Below, in pieces: positions 37,996 to 46,282 of a DNA stretch of 64,000 nucleotides. The DNA is from Gammaproteobacteria bacterium (GTDB lineage Bacteria; Gemmatimonadota; Gemmatimonadetes; Longimicrobiales; Gaopeijiaceae): the NCBI GenBank assembly GCA_028819075.1, contig JAPPMM010000040.1, positions 1-64,000 on the forward strand, read 5' to 3'. A program made the position numbers and the translations under genes. The stretch's first letter is position 1, and each line of letters begins with the position of its first letter. Below the pieces are notes generated by a model that ran no database searches, was not told where the DNA came from, and saw nothing but the letters and a program-made list of their open reading frames with translations.

Positions 37996-38463
37996 TCAGT
38001 TCGAGTGCATCTTGAAACTCCACCGCCGCGGACCGGATCGCTTCCGGTTCGAGTCGGTCTCCTCGTCCGAAGCGGCCAACGGCGCCTCGGCAGGCTGGTG
38101 CACCGAATCGGCATCCTCAGGGAGGGACATCGCCTCGAGTGCCGCGTCACGCGTGTCGTACACGGGGATGATCTTGTCGAAGCCGCTGAGCGTGACGACC
38201 GCGGCAATCGCCGCCGGAAGCCCGCACATCCCCATCGCCTTGCCGGATCCGCGGAATCTCTTGGCCAGCACCAGCAGGACGCTCAGGCCGGCGCTGCTCA
38301 TGTAGGAAAGACCGCGCAGGTCGAGGAGGAGGGCTCTCTCGTCCGCCGGCACCTCCGACACCAGCGCTTCCCGGAATGCCGCGCTGTTCACGCTGTCGAC
38401 ACGACCCGCGGGCGAGGCGATCAGCACGCCATTCATCCTTTCCCAACTGACCTTCAGGTCCAT
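37996..38463 (-). CDS. STAS-domain protein (anti-sigma-factor-antagonist type)
   Basis: Protein of 155 residues starting [20 protein letters not shown]. Residues 1-110 are a SpoIIAA-like STAS domain; [11 protein letters not shown] at 54-64 places Ser 57 at the regulatory phosphoserine position. The last 45 residues are a charged, probably disordered tail. Such proteins take part in partner switching with a SpoIIAB-like kinase, which is not adjacent here. The only kinase-like domain nearby is the one fused to the NCS2-type transporter 3 kb away. It is divergent from cysD. Confidence 0.85.
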
Positions 38464-38619
38464 GGGTCTACCCGGGCACTTGCATGGTATGGGGATTCAG
38501 CGCGCACTCCGACAGAATACCAATGCCACAAGCTGCAGGCTTCGTCACCCGGTGTCAACACGACTCGGGTTCACCTCCGGCTGATCCACCCAAGGCGCGG
38601 ATTGTGCCGCCGGAACCAG

Positions 38620-38648
38620 TTGAACCGGTCCCGGAACGGTGGTACGAT
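38620..38648 (+). promoter_or_regulatory. Sigma-70-type promoter for cysD-cysNC
   Basis: TTGAAC (38620-38625) and TACGAT (38643-38648) are separated by exactly 17 bases and would start transcription about 45 bases before the cysD ATG. I see no riboswitch-like structure in the 236-bp space between the STAS gene and cysD. Confidence 0.5.
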
Positions 38649-38699
38649 CCCGTCGCCAAACGTCTCCGGGACGAATTACACGATGCAATCTGCGAGAAC

Positions 38700-39638
38700 A
38701 TGAGCGGGAAGCGGGAGAGCAGCGGCCGCACCGACCGTTCGGGTGCCCACTGGCTCTCGGCGCTCGAATCCGAGGCCATCGAGATCATCCGCGAGGGAGC
38801 CGCGACGGCGGCCCGACCCGTCATGCTGTATTCGATGGGCAAGGACTCGTCGGTGTTGCTCCATCTCGCCCGCAAGGCGTTCTGGCCCGCGCGCCCCCCG
38901 CTTCCCCTGCTGCACATCGACACCACCTGGCAGTTCCGGGAGATGATCGCCTTCCGCGACCGCATGGTCGCCGAGACGGGCGTCGAGCTGCGGGTTCACG
39001 TGAACCGGGCGGGCCTGAAGGCCGGCGCAGACCCCTTCACCGACGGATCGGAACGCTATGCCGACGTGATGATCACCGAAGCGCTGCGACAGGCGCTGGA
39101 CGCGGGGAAGTACGACATCATCTTCGTGGGTGGGCGGCGGGACGAGGAGAAATCGCGGGCGAAGGAGCGGGTGTTTTCCTTCCGCAACGCGGCCCATCAG
39201 TGGGATCCCAGGGCCCAGCGCCCCGAACTCTGGAGCCTGTACAACACGCGTGTCCAACAGGGTGAATCGCTCCGGGTTTCGCCCCTCTCCAACTGGACCG
39301 AGGCCGATGTCTGGCGCTACATCGCGGCGGAAGGGATCCCGGTGGTTCCGCTGTACTTCGCGAAGAAGCGCCCGGTCGTCGAACGTGAAGGCCAGTGGAT
39401 CATGGTCGACGACGAACGCATGCCTCTGGAGCCCGGCCAGGAGCCGCGGCTGCTTCCAGTCCGCTTCCGCACCCTGGGATGCTACCCGCTCACGACCGCC
39501 GTCGAGAGCGGCGCCGACACCCTGGAGGCGATCCTCGCCGAGACGCTGGCGACCCACGATTCCGAACGCCGGGGACGCCTGGTGGACCATGACGGGGACG
39601 CCTCCATGGAACGCAAGAAGCGGCAGGGCTACTTCTGA
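38700..39638 (+). CDS. cysD: Sulfate adenylyltransferase subunit 2 (ATP sulfurylase, small subunit)
   Basis: CysD forms adenosine 5'-phosphosulfate from ATP and sulfate together with CysN. ATG 38700 gives 312 residues, close to the usual 300; the longer frame to 38484 crosses the promoter. The PP-loop region is [20 protein letters not shown], followed by [56 protein letters not shown] and the terminal ERKKRQGYF. The stop overlaps the next start (TGATG), giving a tightly coupled cysD-cysNC pair. Confidence 0.94.
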
Positions 39639-41482
39639 TGGCATCCGGTCCGGCGCCGGCGCGACCGCCCCTGCGCTTCGTCCTGTGCGGCGCCGTGGAC
39701 GACGGCAAGAGCACCCTTCTCGGCCGGCTGCTCTGGGACTGCCGGCAGGTCTTTGCCGATCAGATGCGCAAGGTGGAGGAGGATTCCCGGCGCTGGGGAA
39801 CCCGGGGCGACCAGGCGGATCTGGCGCTCCTGGTCGACGGTCTGCGCGACGAGCGCGAGCAGGGCATCACCATCGACGTCGCCTACCGGAGCTTCGAGAC
39901 GGCCCGGCGCCGTTTCATCGTCGCCGACGCGCCCGGACACGAACAGTACACCCGCAACATGGCGACCGGCGCCTCGAACGCCGAACTGGCGGTCGTTGTG
40001 GCCGACGCCCGCAAGGGGATCCTGCCCCAGACCGCCCGGCACACCCGCATCGCCGCCATGTTCGGGATCCGGCACGTGGTCCTTGCGGTCAACAAGATGG
40101 ATCTGGTGCTCTGGGACCGGAGCATCTTCCAGGCGATCGCCGACGAGTACCGGTCGCTGGCGCGGGATTCGGGTGTCGAGAGCCTGCGGATCATGCCCGT
40201 ATCTTCGCTTACGGGAGAGAATCTCACGCGCCGCCGCGATTCGGCCGAGTGGTATGCCGGCCCGACGCTGCTCGAGCACCTGGAGACGGTCGATGTCGAA
40301 TCGTCCATCGAAAGGGAGTCCTTCCGGATGCCCGTCCAGTACGTCAACCGGCCCAGCCCCGATTTTCGCGGCTACAGCGGCCGGATCACGGCCGGCAGGG
40401 TCGCCGTGGGGGACCGTGTGCGCATATCCCCGTCGGGAGCGGAGACCGTCGTGGAGTCGATCGTGGTTTGGCAGGGGGCCCGGGAGCGGGCCGAACGGGG
40501 CGACTCGGTGACGCTGACCCTCGCCAACGAGGTGGATGTGACGCGCGGAGACGTGATCGCGGAAGCCTTCAATCCGCCGGGTGTGACGGACCAGTTCCAG
40601 GCCAACCTGATCTGGATGAGCGACCGCCCTCTGGTGGTCGGCCGCTCCTACCTGCTGAAGATCCATTCGCGGGAGGTGACCGCGACCGTCACCCGCATCA
40701 AGTACCGGCTGGACGTCTCGCGGGGAAGCAGGCTGGCAGGCGCCACGCTGAACCTCAACGACCTCGGCACGGTCAACATCGCGACCAACCGGCCGATTCC
40801 CTACGCGCCCTTCGACCGATACCCCGGGCTGGGCAGCTTCATCCTGATCGATCTGGCCACCAACGAGACCGCAGGCGCCGGCACCGTCAACTTTGCGCTC
40901 AGGCGCGCGTCCAACATCCGCTGGCAGGACTTCCACGTCACCCGGGAGGCCCGCCAGGAACTCAAGCTGCAGCGGGCCCGGTGTCTGTGGCTCACGGGAC
41001 TCCCGGCGTCGGGCAAGTCCACGATCGCCGACCTGCTCGAGAAGCGCCTTCACGCGGAGGGCCACCACACCTACCTCCTGGACGGCGACAACGTCCGCCA
41101 CGGACTCAACCGGGACCTCGGCTTCACCGAGGCCGACCGGGTGGAGAACATCCGCAGGGTGGCCGAGGTGGCTCGACTGATGGTCGATGCGGGGCTGATC
41201 GTCATCGTGTCCTTCATCAGCCCCTTCCGGTCGGAACGGGCTTTCGCCCGCGGTCTGTTCGCACCCGGTGACTTCAACGAGATCTTCGTCGACGCGTCCA
41301 TCGAAGTGTGCGCGGCGCGCGACCCGAAGGGACTGTATGTCAGGGCGATGAGGGGCGAGATCACGAACTTCACCGGCATCGACAGCCCCTATGAGCAGCC
41401 CGAGAACCCGGACCTGCACCTCGACACCGAGGAGCTGGGGCCCGAGGAGTGCGCGGAGTTGATTCTGCGGCGGCTGGTCTGA
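39638..41482 (+). CDS. cysNC: Bifunctional sulfate adenylyltransferase subunit 1 / APS kinase
   Basis: Protein of 614 residues. Residues 1-430 are the CysN GTPase (GAVDDGKSTLLGRL, DAPGHEQYTRNMATGASNAE, NKMDLVLWD and two beta-barrel domains). Residues 445-614 are CysC, APS kinase (LTGLPASGKSTIADLLEKRL, LDGDNVRHGLNRDLGF, SFISPFRSERAFARGL). Together with CysD it converts sulfate to APS and then PAPS. The product serves cysteine synthesis or sulfation; no reductase or sulfotransferase is in this window. The cysNC fusion is a known arrangement. Confidence 0.95.
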   Translation: MASGPAPARPPLRFVLCGAVDDGKSTLLGRLLWDCRQVFADQMRKVEEDSRRWGTRGDQADLALLVDGLRDEREQGITIDVAYRSFETARRRFIVADAPGHEQYTRNMATGASNAELAVVVADARKGILPQTARHTRIAAMFGIRHVVLAVNKMDLVLWDRSIFQAIADEYRSLARDSGVESLRIMPVSSLTGENLTRRRDSAEWYAGPTLLEHLETVDVESSIERESFRMPVQYVNRPSPDFRGYSGRITAGRVAVGDRVRISPSGAETVVESIVVWQGARERAERGDSVTLTLANEVDVTRGDVIAEAFNPPGVTDQFQANLIWMSDRPLVVGRSYLLKIHSREVTATVTRIKYRLDVSRGSRLAGATLNLNDLGTVNIATNRPIPYAPFDRYPGLGSFILIDLATNETAGAGTVNFALRRASNIRWQDFHVTREARQELKLQRARCLWLTGLPASGKSTIADLLEKRLHAEGHHTYLLDGDNVRHGLNRDLGFTEADRVENIRRVAEVARLMVDAGLIVIVSFISPFRSERAFARGLFAPGDFNEIFVDASIEVCAARDPKGLYVRAMRGEITNFTGIDSPYEQPENPDLHLDTEELGPEECAELILRRLV

Positions 41483-41524: not shown

Positions 41525-43261
41525 CTACCTGTCCACGCGAATCGTGACGACATCCGCGTTGTGGTACTGCTGGTGCTTCACGGATGACGCGTAGTGGCGA
41601 AGGAGCCGCAGCGACAGGTCGCGCTTGCTCTCCAGGTCCGGGATGTCGCCGAGCAGAACGATCTGGTTCTCCAGATTCCCGGCGTCGGTCGCCGCGCTGA
41701 ACTCGAGGATGGCTCCCGTGCGGTCGTTGCGCGCGACGACGCGCAGCCGCCGGTCATCGGCATGGCTCCCGTCCTCCTCCTGCCGGGCCAGGCTGAGGAG
41801 CGCTTCCTCCGATGCCGCTCTGAGGCGCCCCCTTCCCTCGCCGTCCCATCCGTACTTCCCCGCGAACCCGACCACGAACTCGTCGAGGGCGCGAAGGCTG
41901 TCCGGACTGAGCAGCATCTCCGTCCTTCGCCGCCGGGGCCCGGTCAGCTCCAGGAACAGGTTCAGCAGGAGGATGGTCACCCCGCCGGCCGTCAGTCCGT
42001 TCGCCAGCATCTGCGCGGCGGGGGTTCCCAGGTGCTGCGGGAATATCGCCTGGAACTGGATGCCGACGCCGACCCAGAAGGAGAATCCCGCGATCAGCCA
42101 GCTGTTGCGCCCTCCGTCCGCCTGGAAGACGACGCGCATGCCGCGGGCAAAGACGAGCCCGATTACGACGACGATGTAGGCACCGAGCACGGGCCCCGGG
42201 ATGGCCAGCACGAGGGCGCTGATCTTGGGAACGAACGCCAGGCCGATGAAGATGGCTCCGATGTAGACGCCCACCCTTCTGGCCGCCACGCCGATGCCCT
42301 CCGCCAGGGCGATGCCGGCTGGATAGGGCCAGATCGGCAGGACGCCCGCGACCCCCGACAGCAAGGTGCCCGCGCCGCAGGCGGCCACGGCCCCCTGGAC
42401 CCTGCGGAAGTCGATCGCCTTCTGTTCGCGCCGCGAGAGACGCTGCATGACGATGGCGTCGCCGATCTGCCTGACCGTGATGACCAGGGTGACGAACAGA
42501 AAGGCCGGCAGGAGCAGCCAGAAGCTCGCATCGAACCCTGCGTCGAGACCGGGCAACGCCGTGGCGGGGATCCCGAACCAGCCGGCCTCGCGCACCGGCG
42601 TGAGATCGAATATCCCGAAGAGAGCGGCCGTGGCGCACCCCAGAGCGAGCGCGACCACCGGGGTCCACGCTCTCAGGAGCCGGGGGGCGCGCAGCATCAG
42701 GCCCAGCACGGCGGCCGCCGTGACGAGCGTGATGGTGGGCGCCGCGGCCGTGGGCGCCTGCAACGGAACCTCGATCAGCAACGCGAACCCCATGGGCATC
42801 ACCGTGACCGAGATGAGCGCCATGAGCGTGCCCGACACCACCGGCGTGATGATTCGCCGGAGCAGGATCAGGCGGGCCGCCAGGCCGAGCTGGAAGAGCC
42901 CCGAGGCGATCACCAGCACTGCGAGCAACGCGGGACCGCCCGCGGCCAGCGCCAGCACGGCGACGCCGATCGAGGCTCCGGAGGCTCCCATGACCATCAG
43001 GCTGGCGCCCCCCACGCCCGCCACTCGCCGGGCCTGGACGATGGTCGTCAGCCCGCCGATGACCATGCTGGCGAAGATGGCCCAGGAGAGGTAGGAGCCA
43101 GTCAGATTCGCCGCGCGCGTAACGATCGCGGTGACCACGACCACGGGCGTGCATACCAGCACGGCCACCTGCAGCCCGAGGATGAACGAGGCGGGATGCG
43201 GCGGCGGTTCGTTGGCCGCGTAGCGGAGGCCTCCTGCCGGCTTTCCGGGGCCGGATTTCAC
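41525..43261 (-). CDS. NCS2-type transporter fused to a degenerate SpoIIAB-like domain
   Basis: Protein of 578 residues from ATG 43261. Residues 25-440 have about 12-14 helices of the nucleobase-cation symporter-2 pattern (PVVSGTLMALISVTVMPMGF, IDFRRVQGAVAACGAGTLLS, ALVLAIPGPVLGAY). The two polar residues that bind substrate in UraA/UapA-type members are replaced: the helix-8 motif E-x-x-G-D reads R264-Q-I-G-D, and the helix-10 Y-x-(E/Q)-N reads Y313-P-A-G. Residues 447-578 resemble an anti-sigma kinase (HATPase) fold, with AASEEALLSLARQ where an N-box would be but no Asn and no glycine box. So it probably carries something other than uracil or xanthine, under control by its tail. It is convergent with cysNC. 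Confidence 0.75.
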   Translation of the reverse strand: MKSGPGKPAGGLRYAANEPPPHPASFILGLQVAVLVCTPVVVVTAIVTRAANLTGSYLSWAIFASMVIGGLTTIVQARRVAGVGGASLMVMGASGASIGVAVLALAAGGPALLAVLVIASGLFQLGLAARLILLRRIITPVVSGTLMALISVTVMPMGFALLIEVPLQAPTAAAPTITLVTAAAVLGLMLRAPRLLRAWTPVVALALGCATAALFGIFDLTPVREAGWFGIPATALPGLDAGFDASFWLLLPAFLFVTLVITVRQIGDAIVMQRLSRREQKAIDFRRVQGAVAACGAGTLLSGVAGVLPIWPYPAGIALAEGIGVAARRVGVYIGAIFIGLAFVPKISALVLAIPGPVLGAYIVVVIGLVFARGMRVVFQADGGRNSWLIAGFSFWVGVGIQFQAIFPQHLGTPAAQMLANGLTAGGVTILLLNLFLELTGPRRRRTEMLLSPDSLRALDEFVVGFAGKYGWDGEGRGRLRAASEEALLSLARQEEDGSHADDRRLRVVARNDRTGAILEFSAATDAGNLENQIVLLGDIPDLESKRDLSLRLLRHYASSVKHQQYHNADVVTIRVDR

Positions 43262-43386: not shown

Positions 43387-44106
43387 ATGGGAGGAGGAGT
43401 GCAGCAGGCACTGCTGAGGAGTCCCCGCCAGTCCGCGTGGCTGCGCACGCTGGCGGTCTCGGCCCTGACAGCGGTGTTGCCGCTGGCGCCAGGTGCTCAT
43501 TCCCTGCGGGCACAGGTCTCACCGGAGATCCTCCAGGTCCTTCAGCAGGGGGGAGCGTGGGTCGCGCTGCCCATCGAGGATGGCGTCGGCTCCTTCCAGA
43601 GCCAGCCGGTGCCAACCCTGGGGATCCAGCTTCAGGGTCATCTGCAGATCTGGGAGGAGCACACGGGAAGCTGGCATGTCGTCATGCGCGATCTGGCGCG
43701 CGCCGAGGATCCGGTGATCCTCGAACGCCTGATGGTGCCGGGGGAGCGCGTGGAATTCGACTACCAGACCGGGATGCTGGGGCAGATCCAGATCGACGTG
43801 CGGTGGAGCGAGGCCCGCGACACGACGCTCCGGGTCTGGGTGGGAACGGAGTTGACGCCCGGGGAGTCGGACGCACTGACATCTACTGACGTCTACTGGA
43901 ATCATGCCGGGAGCGGAGGCTCCGTGCTATCGGCGGGAAGCCAGAGACTCCGCGAGCAGGCACAGGATCTCGTACATCAGCGAGGCGCCGACCAGCGCCG
44001 TGCCCCCGCTGGGATCGAGGGGCGGGGCGACCTCCACCACGTCGGCCCCCACGAGGTTGAGGCCGCGCAGGCCGTGCAGAAGCGCGACCGCCTCGCGCGT
44101 GGTTAG
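43387..44106 (+). CDS. Hypothetical exported protein, end uncertain
   Basis: Open frame of 239 residues from ATG 43387; GTG 43399 is also possible but sits too near the GGAGGAG. The first 43 residues are a signal peptide ending SLRAQ. Residues 44-170 are a compact beta-rich domain (ILQVLQQGGAWVALPIEDGV, WEEHTGSWHVVMRDLA, VWVGTELTPGE) that I do not recognise. The last 60 residues run antisense through the end of the agmatinase-like gene and look like a shadow. Either the stop codon was lost or the two genes overlap by 180 bases. Confidence 0.45.
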   Translation: MGGGVQQALLRSPRQSAWLRTLAVSALTAVLPLAPGAHSLRAQVSPEILQVLQQGGAWVALPIEDGVGSFQSQPVPTLGIQLQGHLQIWEEHTGSWHVVMRDLARAEDPVILERLMVPGERVEFDYQTGMLGQIQIDVRWSEARDTTLRVWVGTELTPGESDALTSTDVYWNHAGSGGSVLSAGSQRLREQAQDLVHQRGADQRRAPAGIEGRGDLHHVGPHEVEAAQAVQKRDRLARG

Positions 44107-44904
44107 CCCGCCGATCTCGGGCGTTCCCGTGCCCGGCGTGAAGGCGGGATCGATCCCGTCCACGTCGAAGGTGATGTAGGTCGGGCCGTCGCCCACCACC
44201 CGGCGGGCCTCCTCCACCACTCCCTCCACCCCCAGCCGCCGGAACTCGTCGATCTTGACGACGCGCATGCCGTGTTCCATCGAGAACTCGAACCCGTCCA
44301 GGAAGTTCTGGTAGCCGCGGATGCCGATCTGGATCGAGCGCTCGGGATCGAGCACCCCCGCCTCCACGGCGCGGCGGAAGGGAGCGCCGTGGTGGTATTT
44401 CGAACCGCCGATCGCGTCCCAGGTGTCGAGATGCGCGTCGATCTGCACCATGCCGAGCGGCCGGCCGGCCCCCAGCGCCTTCAAGATGGGATAGGTGACG
44501 GAATGGTCTCCGCCGGCGCTCAGCGGCACCGGGCCGGCCGCGCGGAGGCGGGTGAAGAGGGCTTCGATCTGCCCGACCACGTCGTCGAGATGGTAGATGC
44601 TGTCGAATCGCACATCCCCCACGTCGGCGATCCGGCACAGCGAAAAGGGATCGACCCCCGTCAGCACGTTGATCCTGCGCACCACGTTGGACCTGTTGCG
44701 AATCTCGCGCGGCCCGTGGCGCGCACCCGGCTGGAAGGTCACGCCGTGGTCGGTCGGCACCCCGACGAGCGCGATGTCGAGGCCCTCGAGGGTCGTGGCG
44801 AGCGGCGCGCGCAGGAGCGTGGCCCCGCCCATGAAGCGCAGGTCGTCGAGCGGCCGGTAGGACTCGCCCGTTACGGGTGAAACGGCGTCGTAGAAGTCGC
44901 TCAC
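43927..44904 (-). CDS. Agmatinase/ureohydrolase family enzyme
   Basis: Protein of 325 residues from GTG 44904. It has the binuclear manganese motifs of the arginase fold: SAGGDHSVTYP, QIDAHLDTWD and TFDVDGIDPAFTPG, plus PTDHGVTFQPGARHGPREIR near the start. These fit agmatinase, guanidinobutyrase or guanidinase, all of which release urea from a guanidino compound; arginase is less likely given the early GATLLR region. The family alone does not fix the substrate. A terminator separates it from the upstream aminotransferase gene, so it may have its own promoter in the 80 bp between. Confidence 0.87.
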   Translation of the reverse strand: MSDFYDAVSPVTGESYRPLDDLRFMGGATLLRAPLATTLEGLDIALVGVPTDHGVTFQPGARHGPREIRNRSNVVRRINVLTGVDPFSLCRIADVGDVRFDSIYHLDDVVGQIEALFTRLRAAGPVPLSAGGDHSVTYPILKALGAGRPLGMVQIDAHLDTWDAIGGSKYHHGAPFRRAVEAGVLDPERSIQIGIRGYQNFLDGFEFSMEHGMRVVKIDEFRRLGVEGVVEEARRVVGDGPTYITFDVDGIDPAFTPGTGTPEIGGLTTREAVALLHGLRGLNLVGADVVEVAPPLDPSGGTALVGASLMYEILCLLAESLASRR

Positions 44905-44913
44905 TCGGGCGCC

Positions 44914-44953
44914 TCAAAGAAAACGGGGCCGGCCCCTGCCCGGGACCGGCCCC
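44914..44953 (-). terminator. Intrinsic terminator after the Tat-exported aminotransferase gene
   Basis: On the minus strand GGGGCCGG and CCGGCCCC form an eight-base-pair GC stem around a 13-base loop, followed at once by GTTTTCTTTG. It lies 34 bases beyond the aminotransferase stop and just before the agmatinase-like start. Confidence 0.68.
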
Positions 44954-44986
44954 TTCCTGTTCCGGAGGCCGCGGATGCCGCCGCGA

Positions 44987-46165
44987 TCAGCCGGAGGTCG
45001 TCGTGGTGGCGGTTCTGGGCGGCATGATCTCCTTCCACGCCGTCATGAAGCGCGCCATCTCCTCCTCGGTGCCGACCGATACCCGCAGGTAGTCGAGCAT
45101 GGGCGGGAAGTCGCGGCCCACGAGCACGCCCCTCTCCCGGAACGCGGCCCGGACTTCGGCGGCCGGACGTCCGGTGTTCACCATGAAGAAGTTGGTCTCG
45201 GAGGGGAGCACCTCGTAGCCCAGGGCCTGCAGCTCCTCGGTGGTCTGCTTGCGCAGGCGGAGCGTCGTCTCGCGCACGAAGCGCTCGTTCTCCAGGTCCT
45301 CGAGCGCGGCGACCCCGCCCCACCTCACCAGCGCGTTCACGCTGCCGGTGGTGTAGGTGCGCATGTCGCTGATCATGTCGGCGGGCGCGATGCCGTAGCC
45401 GAGGCGCAGCCCGGCCATGCCGTAGATCTTGGAGAAGGTGCGCGCGACGATGACCTTGCGCCCTTCGTTCACGTAGGGCACCGCCGTCTCGTAGGAGGGA
45501 TCCTCGACGAAGTGATGGTAGGCCTCGTCGATGAGGACCGGGATGTCCTCGGGGATTTCGTCCAGCACCCGCCGGACGTCGTCGGCCGGGACCGCCATGC
45601 CGGTCGGGTTGTTGGGGTTGCACAGATAGAAGAGCCCGACATCGCGGTAGTTCTTGAGGGTGGCGTCGATCATCGCCGGGATGTCCTGCGAGTAGTCGTC
45701 GAGCAGCGGCAGCATGATGGCGTCCGCGTCGATCCCGGTAGCGACGCCGAAGACGCTCAGGTAGGTCGGCCGCACGCCGATGACTTTCTTCTTGTGCCCG
45801 AGGTAGGTGTGCGCCACCACCCGGAGGGTCTCGCCCGAGCCCGCGCCCAGCAGGATGTTCTCCGATTCCACGCCGTGGTGCTCGGCGATCTTCTGCTGGA
45901 TGTCGCCGTCGGGATAGCCGTACCGGTTCGCGTACTTCCACGCGCCGTTCATCGCCTCCATCATCCGCTCGGACGGGCCGTACGGATTCTCGTTGGAGGA
46001 GAGCTTGGCGAAGGAATCGTAGTCGTACTCCTGCGGGGTGAGGCTGAGCGGGCGCGGGCGCGAATCCCACCCCAACAGTCCGGTGGGCCTGAGCCCGGCG
46101 TACCCCAGCGCCGCTGCCGCTCCTCCCATGAAGCGGCGGCGAGTAACGGAATTCCTCGAGTGCAT
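44987..46165 (-). CDS. HisC-like aminotransferase with Tat signal
   Basis: Protein of 392 residues. ATG 46165 is chosen because GAGGAGG lies seven bases before it; ATG 46183 precedes that site. The N-terminus SVTRRRFMGGAAAALGYAGL is a twin-arginine signal, unexpected for this normally cytoplasmic family. The enzyme core is intact: LSSNENPYGPSERMMEAM, GAGSGETLRVVA, CNPNNPTGM, LIDEAYHHFVEDPSYET, and the PLP lysine in ARTFSKIYGMAGLRLGYGIA. By family it should be close to histidinol-phosphate or aromatic aminotransferases. Export would put a PLP enzyme in the periplasm; the substrate is unknown. Confidence 0.85.
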   Translation of the reverse strand: MHSRNSVTRRRFMGGAAAALGYAGLRPTGLLGWDSRPRPLSLTPQEYDYDSFAKLSSNENPYGPSERMMEAMNGAWKYANRYGYPDGDIQQKIAEHHGVESENILLGAGSGETLRVVAHTYLGHKKKVIGVRPTYLSVFGVATGIDADAIMLPLLDDYSQDIPAMIDATLKNYRDVGLFYLCNPNNPTGMAVPADDVRRVLDEIPEDIPVLIDEAYHHFVEDPSYETAVPYVNEGRKVIVARTFSKIYGMAGLRLGYGIAPADMISDMRTYTTGSVNALVRWGGVAALEDLENERFVRETTLRLRKQTTEELQALGYEVLPSETNFFMVNTGRPAAEVRAAFRERGVLVGRDFPPMLDYLRVSVGTEEEMARFMTAWKEIMPPRTATTTTSG

Positions 46166-46282
46166 GGCAACCTCCTCAGACATGAGAGCGCGACGAACGC
46201 GAACGGTACGAAATCCAGCCTATAGAGTGGCCGCGGGGGCCCTTAAACGCAAATCCCCTGGCACGGTCCCGGGCGCGGCTCA

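Follow-up and report, generated by a model that had tools for sequence, protein, structure and literature searches.

The gene at 41525..43261 (minus strand; 578 aa, GTG start) of the window, a 64,000-nucleotide stretch of contig JAPPMM010000040.1, encodes an NCS2 permease joined to a C-terminal RsbW-like pseudo-ATPase domain. It belongs to a monophyletic group with Arg at position 264, hereafter the Arg264 clade, which co-occurs with the genes for sulfate activation. With moderate confidence, we propose that the proteins of this clade import sulfate, or a small oxyanion like it, to supply the synthesis of APS and PAPS, and that the tail docks a STAS protein, by which transport would be tuned. 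The proposed substrate, transport direction, STAS binding, and gating draw on the fold, the changes in the substrate site, conservation, paralogy, co-occurrence, and gene neighbourhood.

The permease and its substrate site

The Pfam scan assigns residues 25–404 of the product to the NCS2 family (PF00860; E 5.7e-33, 114.6 bits, cut-off 27) and gives no other match, the SulP profile PF00916 being absent. The top NCBIfam model, TIGR03173 (pbuX), reaches 167.8 bits against a cut-off of 414.15, and the scores for all the NCBIfam models matched lie under their cut-offs. UapA and UraA are the closest solved relatives by sequence. The predicted full-length structure is poor (pLDDT 53), and the site residues were assigned instead by aligning UraA with a profile built from 21 relatives. 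In this alignment, UraA 'AEHVGH' lies over 'VRQIGD' and UraA 'NTTYGENIGV' over 'WPYPAGIAL'. Glu241 of UraA is thereby replaced with Arg264 (codon 42470..42472, minus strand), His245 with Asp268 (42458..42460, minus strand), and Glu290, at the position of the Gln in the UapA motif, with Ala315 (42317..42319, minus strand). The alignment to UapA agrees on the register at the two key positions. Passages of PMC11362169 describe E241, H245, and E290 as the binding site of UraA. The first-pass annotation had read the two polar residues that contact nucleobases as Arg and Ala, and both alignments bear this out, with no canonical Glu placed elsewhere in the site. The replacements of E241 with R264 and of E290 with A315 would remove both nucleobase contacts, and the change of charge suits an anion.

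The window genome encodes seven NCS2 proteins, six of which carry the tail, and two of these six retain Glu at 264. The tail is thus not special to this protein, as had initially been supposed. An NCS2 match was found in 48 of the 298 Gemmatimonadota genomes sampled, some of them weak and probably tail-less, with at most four candidates scored per genome. Outside the phylum, where plasmid records were searched, none of the 234 matching records covers 80% of the query. In a tree of 75 tailed and 11 tail-less sequences (five of 80, the shorter ones, were dropped), the Arg264 clade is monophyletic, with an SH-aLRT of 100 and a long stem of 0.87, and the window's genus is the sister group to the rest of the clade. 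Two paralog loci have features of their own: three NCS2 copies lie in tandem at L111:7603-12047 (G030), one of them apparently broken, and a Lys264 paralog at L104:6923-11857 is directly followed by a TRAP transporter (DctP and two membrane-protein-like ORFs), near amidohydrolase genes.

Residues 264 and 315 were compared across 77 tailed proteins. Arg264 and Ala315 are invariant in the clade (40/40), and its members therefore lack the TM8 Glu and the TM10 Glu/Gln that define NCS2 nucleobase transporters. Among the 37 tailed proteins outside the clade, position 264 is occupied by Glu in 24, Asp in eight, Lys in three, and Arg in two. Since neither Glu nor Gln is found at 315 in any of the 77 proteins, the loss at this position is a family trait, while the distribution of residues inside and outside the clade identifies Arg264 and WPYxAG as its marks. 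A basic residue at 264 is no proof of a sulfate site, because Arg and Lys also occur in the tailed paralogs outside the clade. The earlier suggestion of a subfamily with another substrate is nevertheless supported by the monophyly of the clade, by site changes that are invariant within it, and by a genomic context of its own. The protein might still transport purines or pyrimidines through a site that has drifted, its link to cysDNC reflecting a shared island history; xanthine permease is the closest NCBIfam profile, and Glu at 264 prevails among the other tailed proteins (24 of 37). This explanation appears improbable, as both key positions are changed invariantly in the 40 members and a dN/dS of about 0.2–0.3 speaks against drift. 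Moreover, the only purine genes recognised in the clade neighbourhoods are one xanthine-dehydrogenase-like set, located about 9 kb upstream of cysD at locus L181 and judged by eye rather than by profile search.

Genomic context and sulfate activation

The permease gene is convergent with cysNC (39638..41482, plus strand), encoding a fusion of the large sulfate adenylyltransferase subunit with APS kinase (NF004035; 888 bits, cut-off 715). The small subunit is encoded by cysD in the ORF at 38484..39638 (plus strand; TIGR02039, 464 bits, cut-off 396.6); since the CysD model begins at residue 91, the true start is probably internal to this ORF. Divergent from cysD, the gene at 37996..38463 (minus strand) encodes a STAS-domain protein of the anti-sigma-factor-antagonist type with an SSAG serine motif, as identified by the Pfam and NCBIfam scans. 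Upstream of the permease (43927-46183), one gene of the arginase family and one for a class I/II aminotransferase are conserved with it in the window's genus only. An Rfam scan of the window returned nothing.

This order, with the STAS gene, cysD–cysNC, and then the convergent permease, is characteristic of the window's genus. In the Palauibacter-type loci, cysD, cysNC, and the permease are co-directional and are followed by a gene for a small protein, then by those for a B12 radical-SAM protein and a PKS. The two lineages in which cysDNC adjoins the permease lie well apart in the tree. At the other clade loci, the permease lies either behind a GcvT-FAD-FAD-DmdA-like operon or beside a PKS, often with a STAS gene, and cysD is roughly 11–25 kb away (five cases on the same contig, non-adjacent). 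The neighbourhood comparison covers 33 clade loci and 16 loci of other paralogs, which are unequal in length, so that absences there carry little weight. For part of the loci described here, the gene picks come from a codon-position GC rule, and some names were assigned by eye.

CysD was found in 33 of the 35 genomes with the Arg264 clade, counting one (G168) with a frameshifted clade copy, as compared with none of the 13 NCS2-bearing genomes without the clade, seven of which have NCS2 matches that are only weak or probably tail-less. A further 20 genomes of the same family without any NCS2 match include three with CysD. Fisher's exact test yields p values of 5e-10 against the 13 genomes and 2e-13 against all 33, for genomes that are related by descent; more weight is therefore placed on the pattern within genus g25, where CysD is present in 14 of 15 genomes with the clade and in none of the three without it. 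In genus g76, the sole genome without the clade is also without CysD. Sulfate activation is tracked by the Arg264 clade and by no other tailed paralog. In G168, the island genes neighbouring the frameshifted clade gene (L219:13245-14956) are present.

A fusion of a fatty-acyl reductase with a sulfotransferase lies beside a PKS in 18 of 18 clade genomes (two as fragments) versus 0 of 15 without the clade, in a set of 33 genomes chosen by hand from those already searched rather than all 48. At L182:2-8866, and likewise at L219, L222, and L224–L227, a reducing PKS precedes this fusion, with a B12 radical-SAM protein nearby in most of these loci. This gene set is a candidate pathway for a sulfated lipid or an alkyl sulfate, and no such pathway was found in the literature searched. 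In the window genome (G000), CysD is the sole PF01507 protein and no CysH-type reductase was found, which suggests that the PAPS from cysDNC probably goes to sulfotransferases. Two genomes, G140 and G225, possess the clade and the sulfotransferase island, yet contain neither CysD nor any PF01507 protein. The permease probably serves sulfated-lipid synthesis in these uncultured marine-type bacteria. The first-pass annotation had considered an oxyanion or a sulfur compound as the substrate, and the context argues for this, with CysD tracking the clade, cysDNC adjacent in two arrangements, and sulfotransferases co-occurring.

The neighbourhoods also make a DmdA/DMSP reading attractive, in which an organosulfur compound or a methylated zwitterion, such as a DMSP-like molecule, would be carried and Arg264 would hold its carboxylate. 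The clade gene often lies behind the GcvT-FAD-FAD-DmdA-like operon, in several loci with the DmdA-like gene directly upstream, and DmdA-like genes occur in 11 of the 33 clade loci versus none of the 16 other-paralog loci; the DMSP demethylase model NF009133 scores 380.5 bits, below its cut-off of 410. However, this reading lost weight with the distribution of the DmdA-like orthologue (84–96% identity to the query), which is present in 24 of 29 clade genomes but also in four of six without the clade, among 35 genomes chosen by hand from those already searched rather than all 48. In addition, the DmdA-like gene of the window genome is on another contig (C28), together with the PKS and sulfotransferase genes, whereas the permease adjoins cysDNC and the STAS gene. 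We consider a substrate of this kind unlikely, to about the same degree as a nucleobase. A homarine-type substrate, suggested by the operon type, gained no support from the literature found.

Slightly less probable still is a role in the export or movement of an intermediate or product of the PKS–sulfotransferase island, instead of sulfate. Such a role would fit the PKS genes in 15 of the 33 clade loci and the complete co-occurrence of the reductase–sulfotransferase (18/18), which includes the two genomes without CysD. In the window genome, however, the permease is located away from the PKS and still beside cysDNC. To our knowledge, the NCS2-fold carriers of established function take up small solutes, which speaks against export, and the Palauibacter-type loci have an RND pump gene next to cysD.

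The pseudo-ATPase tail and STAS proteins

The tail comprises residues 443–578 (41528..41935, minus strand) and is predicted to adopt the RsbW/SpoIIAB/UsfX fold with a degenerate ATP site. The AlphaFold2 prediction attains a mean pLDDT of 78 in the best of five models only, and its last 17 residues are poor. This model matches RsbW (6m37_C; Z 13.0, rmsd 2.9 Å, 95 aligned), UsfX (8ih8_D; Z 12.3, 24% identity), and SpoIIAB (Z about 11), with unrelated entries at Z about 6. The predicted fold is thus that of an RsbW/SpoIIAB-type HATPase domain and not an unrelated one. At the profile level, HATPase_c_2 matches 14 of 21 tails (best 5.1e-7), and the same scan gives no Pfam match for the tail of the window protein, for which the earlier description as worn is apt. 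A tail profile found nothing credible among the PDB sequences and obtained no significant score against the genome's own RsbW proteins. The apparent relationship to RsbW is carried by the comparison of predicted folds, not by that of profiles.

Alignment with an RsbW of the same genome revealed that all 75 tails retain the N-box Glu. By contrast, none of the 75 has the N-box Asn or either of the two G2 glycines, so that the ATP- and Mg-related residues of an RsbW/SpoIIAB-type kinase are absent. The dN/dS of the tail over seven pairs (0.19–0.36) is close to that of the permease part (0.18–0.32). The motif loss throughout the 75 tails, together with the low dN/dS, indicates that the tail is a conserved pseudo-ATPase, maintained under purifying selection without a normal ATP site. 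The kinase-like character originally ascribed to the tail therefore holds for the fold and fails for the activity. Tail-like ORFs also occur apart from a permease: at L107:7175-8101 (G033), two stand-alone tail domains lie in tandem with no NCS2 gene recognised adjoining, and at L108:7465-9334, a permease ORF and a tail ORF are separate but adjacent, which may reflect a real split or a frameshift.

STAS proteins are the natural partners of RsbW domains, and the product of 37996..38463 is accordingly a candidate partner of the permease tail. The first-pass proposal that the tail gates the transporter thereby gains a specific candidate partner, while gating itself is still hypothetical. STAS genes are present in nine of the 33 clade loci versus none of the 16 other-paralog loci, and those near clade members retain the SSAG-type serine motif. 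The small protein of the Palauibacter-type loci resembles the C-terminal part of longer STAS proteins found elsewhere, a likeness that ties it to STAS. This small domain occurs in 15 clade loci, and one or the other in 20, whereas the other-paralog loci contain neither. Of the 13 clade loci without either one, several end near the gene. It is very unlikely that the tail acts as a membrane tether in a transceptor that sequesters and releases the STAS protein and controls transcription through a sigma factor, as the RsbW fold, the SSAG-type motif of the nearby STAS proteins, and the two stand-alone tail domains in G033 could suggest, for a sigma factor was not identified beside the window gene and STAS genes were not seen near the other tailed paralogs (16 loci).

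Proposed role and comparison with known systems

The simplest function for the Arg264 clade is uptake of sulfate or of a closely related oxyanion. The membrane part would bring in sulfate or a similar small oxyanion, cysDNC would convert the imported sulfate to APS and then to PAPS, and sulfotransferases would spend the PAPS on a sulfated polyketide or lipid. On the cytosolic side, the tail, with its RsbW/SpoIIAB fold and no working ATP site, would dock the STAS protein, encoded here beside cysD, and the docking or release of this protein would tune transport. The idea that the window organism has no other sulfate permease was rejected; all 20 genomes tested encode a SulP protein (PF00916), with the window genome's copy on contig C47, and sulfate import thus does not need the Arg264-clade gene. 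Against a shared function, island linkage lets genes vanish together without a common role. The most specific version, a sulfate permease with an NCS2-fold carrier and a pseudo-RsbW tail that captures a separate STAS protein, and that would supply PAPS for the sulfation of a lipid or polyketide by the island genes, is offered only tentatively.

The literature searched, comprising titles, abstract openings, and passages and including PMC11362169 and PMC10469786, contains no description of an NCS2–RsbW fusion or of this sulfation island. The findings also suggest that Gemmatimonadota make a sulfated lipid or polyketide by a pathway as yet uncharacterised. The NCS2 family is known for nucleobases and ascorbate, and RsbW–STAS partner switching for sigma factors. 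If the proposal is correct, the family includes an anion importer, and partner switching acts on a transporter, with direct control of solute flux in place of a sigma factor.

The window protein resembles UraA, UapA, and PbuX (NCS2/SLC23) over the whole permease domain, in the same register through TM8 and TM10, and differs in having Arg for the TM8 Glu, Ala for the TM10 Glu/Gln, and an extra C-terminal domain. The tail shares the fold and the N-box Glu with the anti-sigma kinases RsbW, SpoIIAB, and UsfX (HATPase_c_2), but lacks the N-box Asn and the G2 glycines and is joined to a transporter. SulP/SLC26 carriers, whose architecture is related to that of NCS2 carriers, bear a C-terminal STAS domain; they share with the window protein a sulfur context and a cytosolic tail related to the STAS/RsbW systems. 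Unlike them, the window protein is not a member of PF00916, and the fold that binds STAS is fused to the carrier while STAS is a separate gene. The capture of a STAS protein by a pseudo-RsbW tail would then mirror the SulP design with its fused STAS domain.
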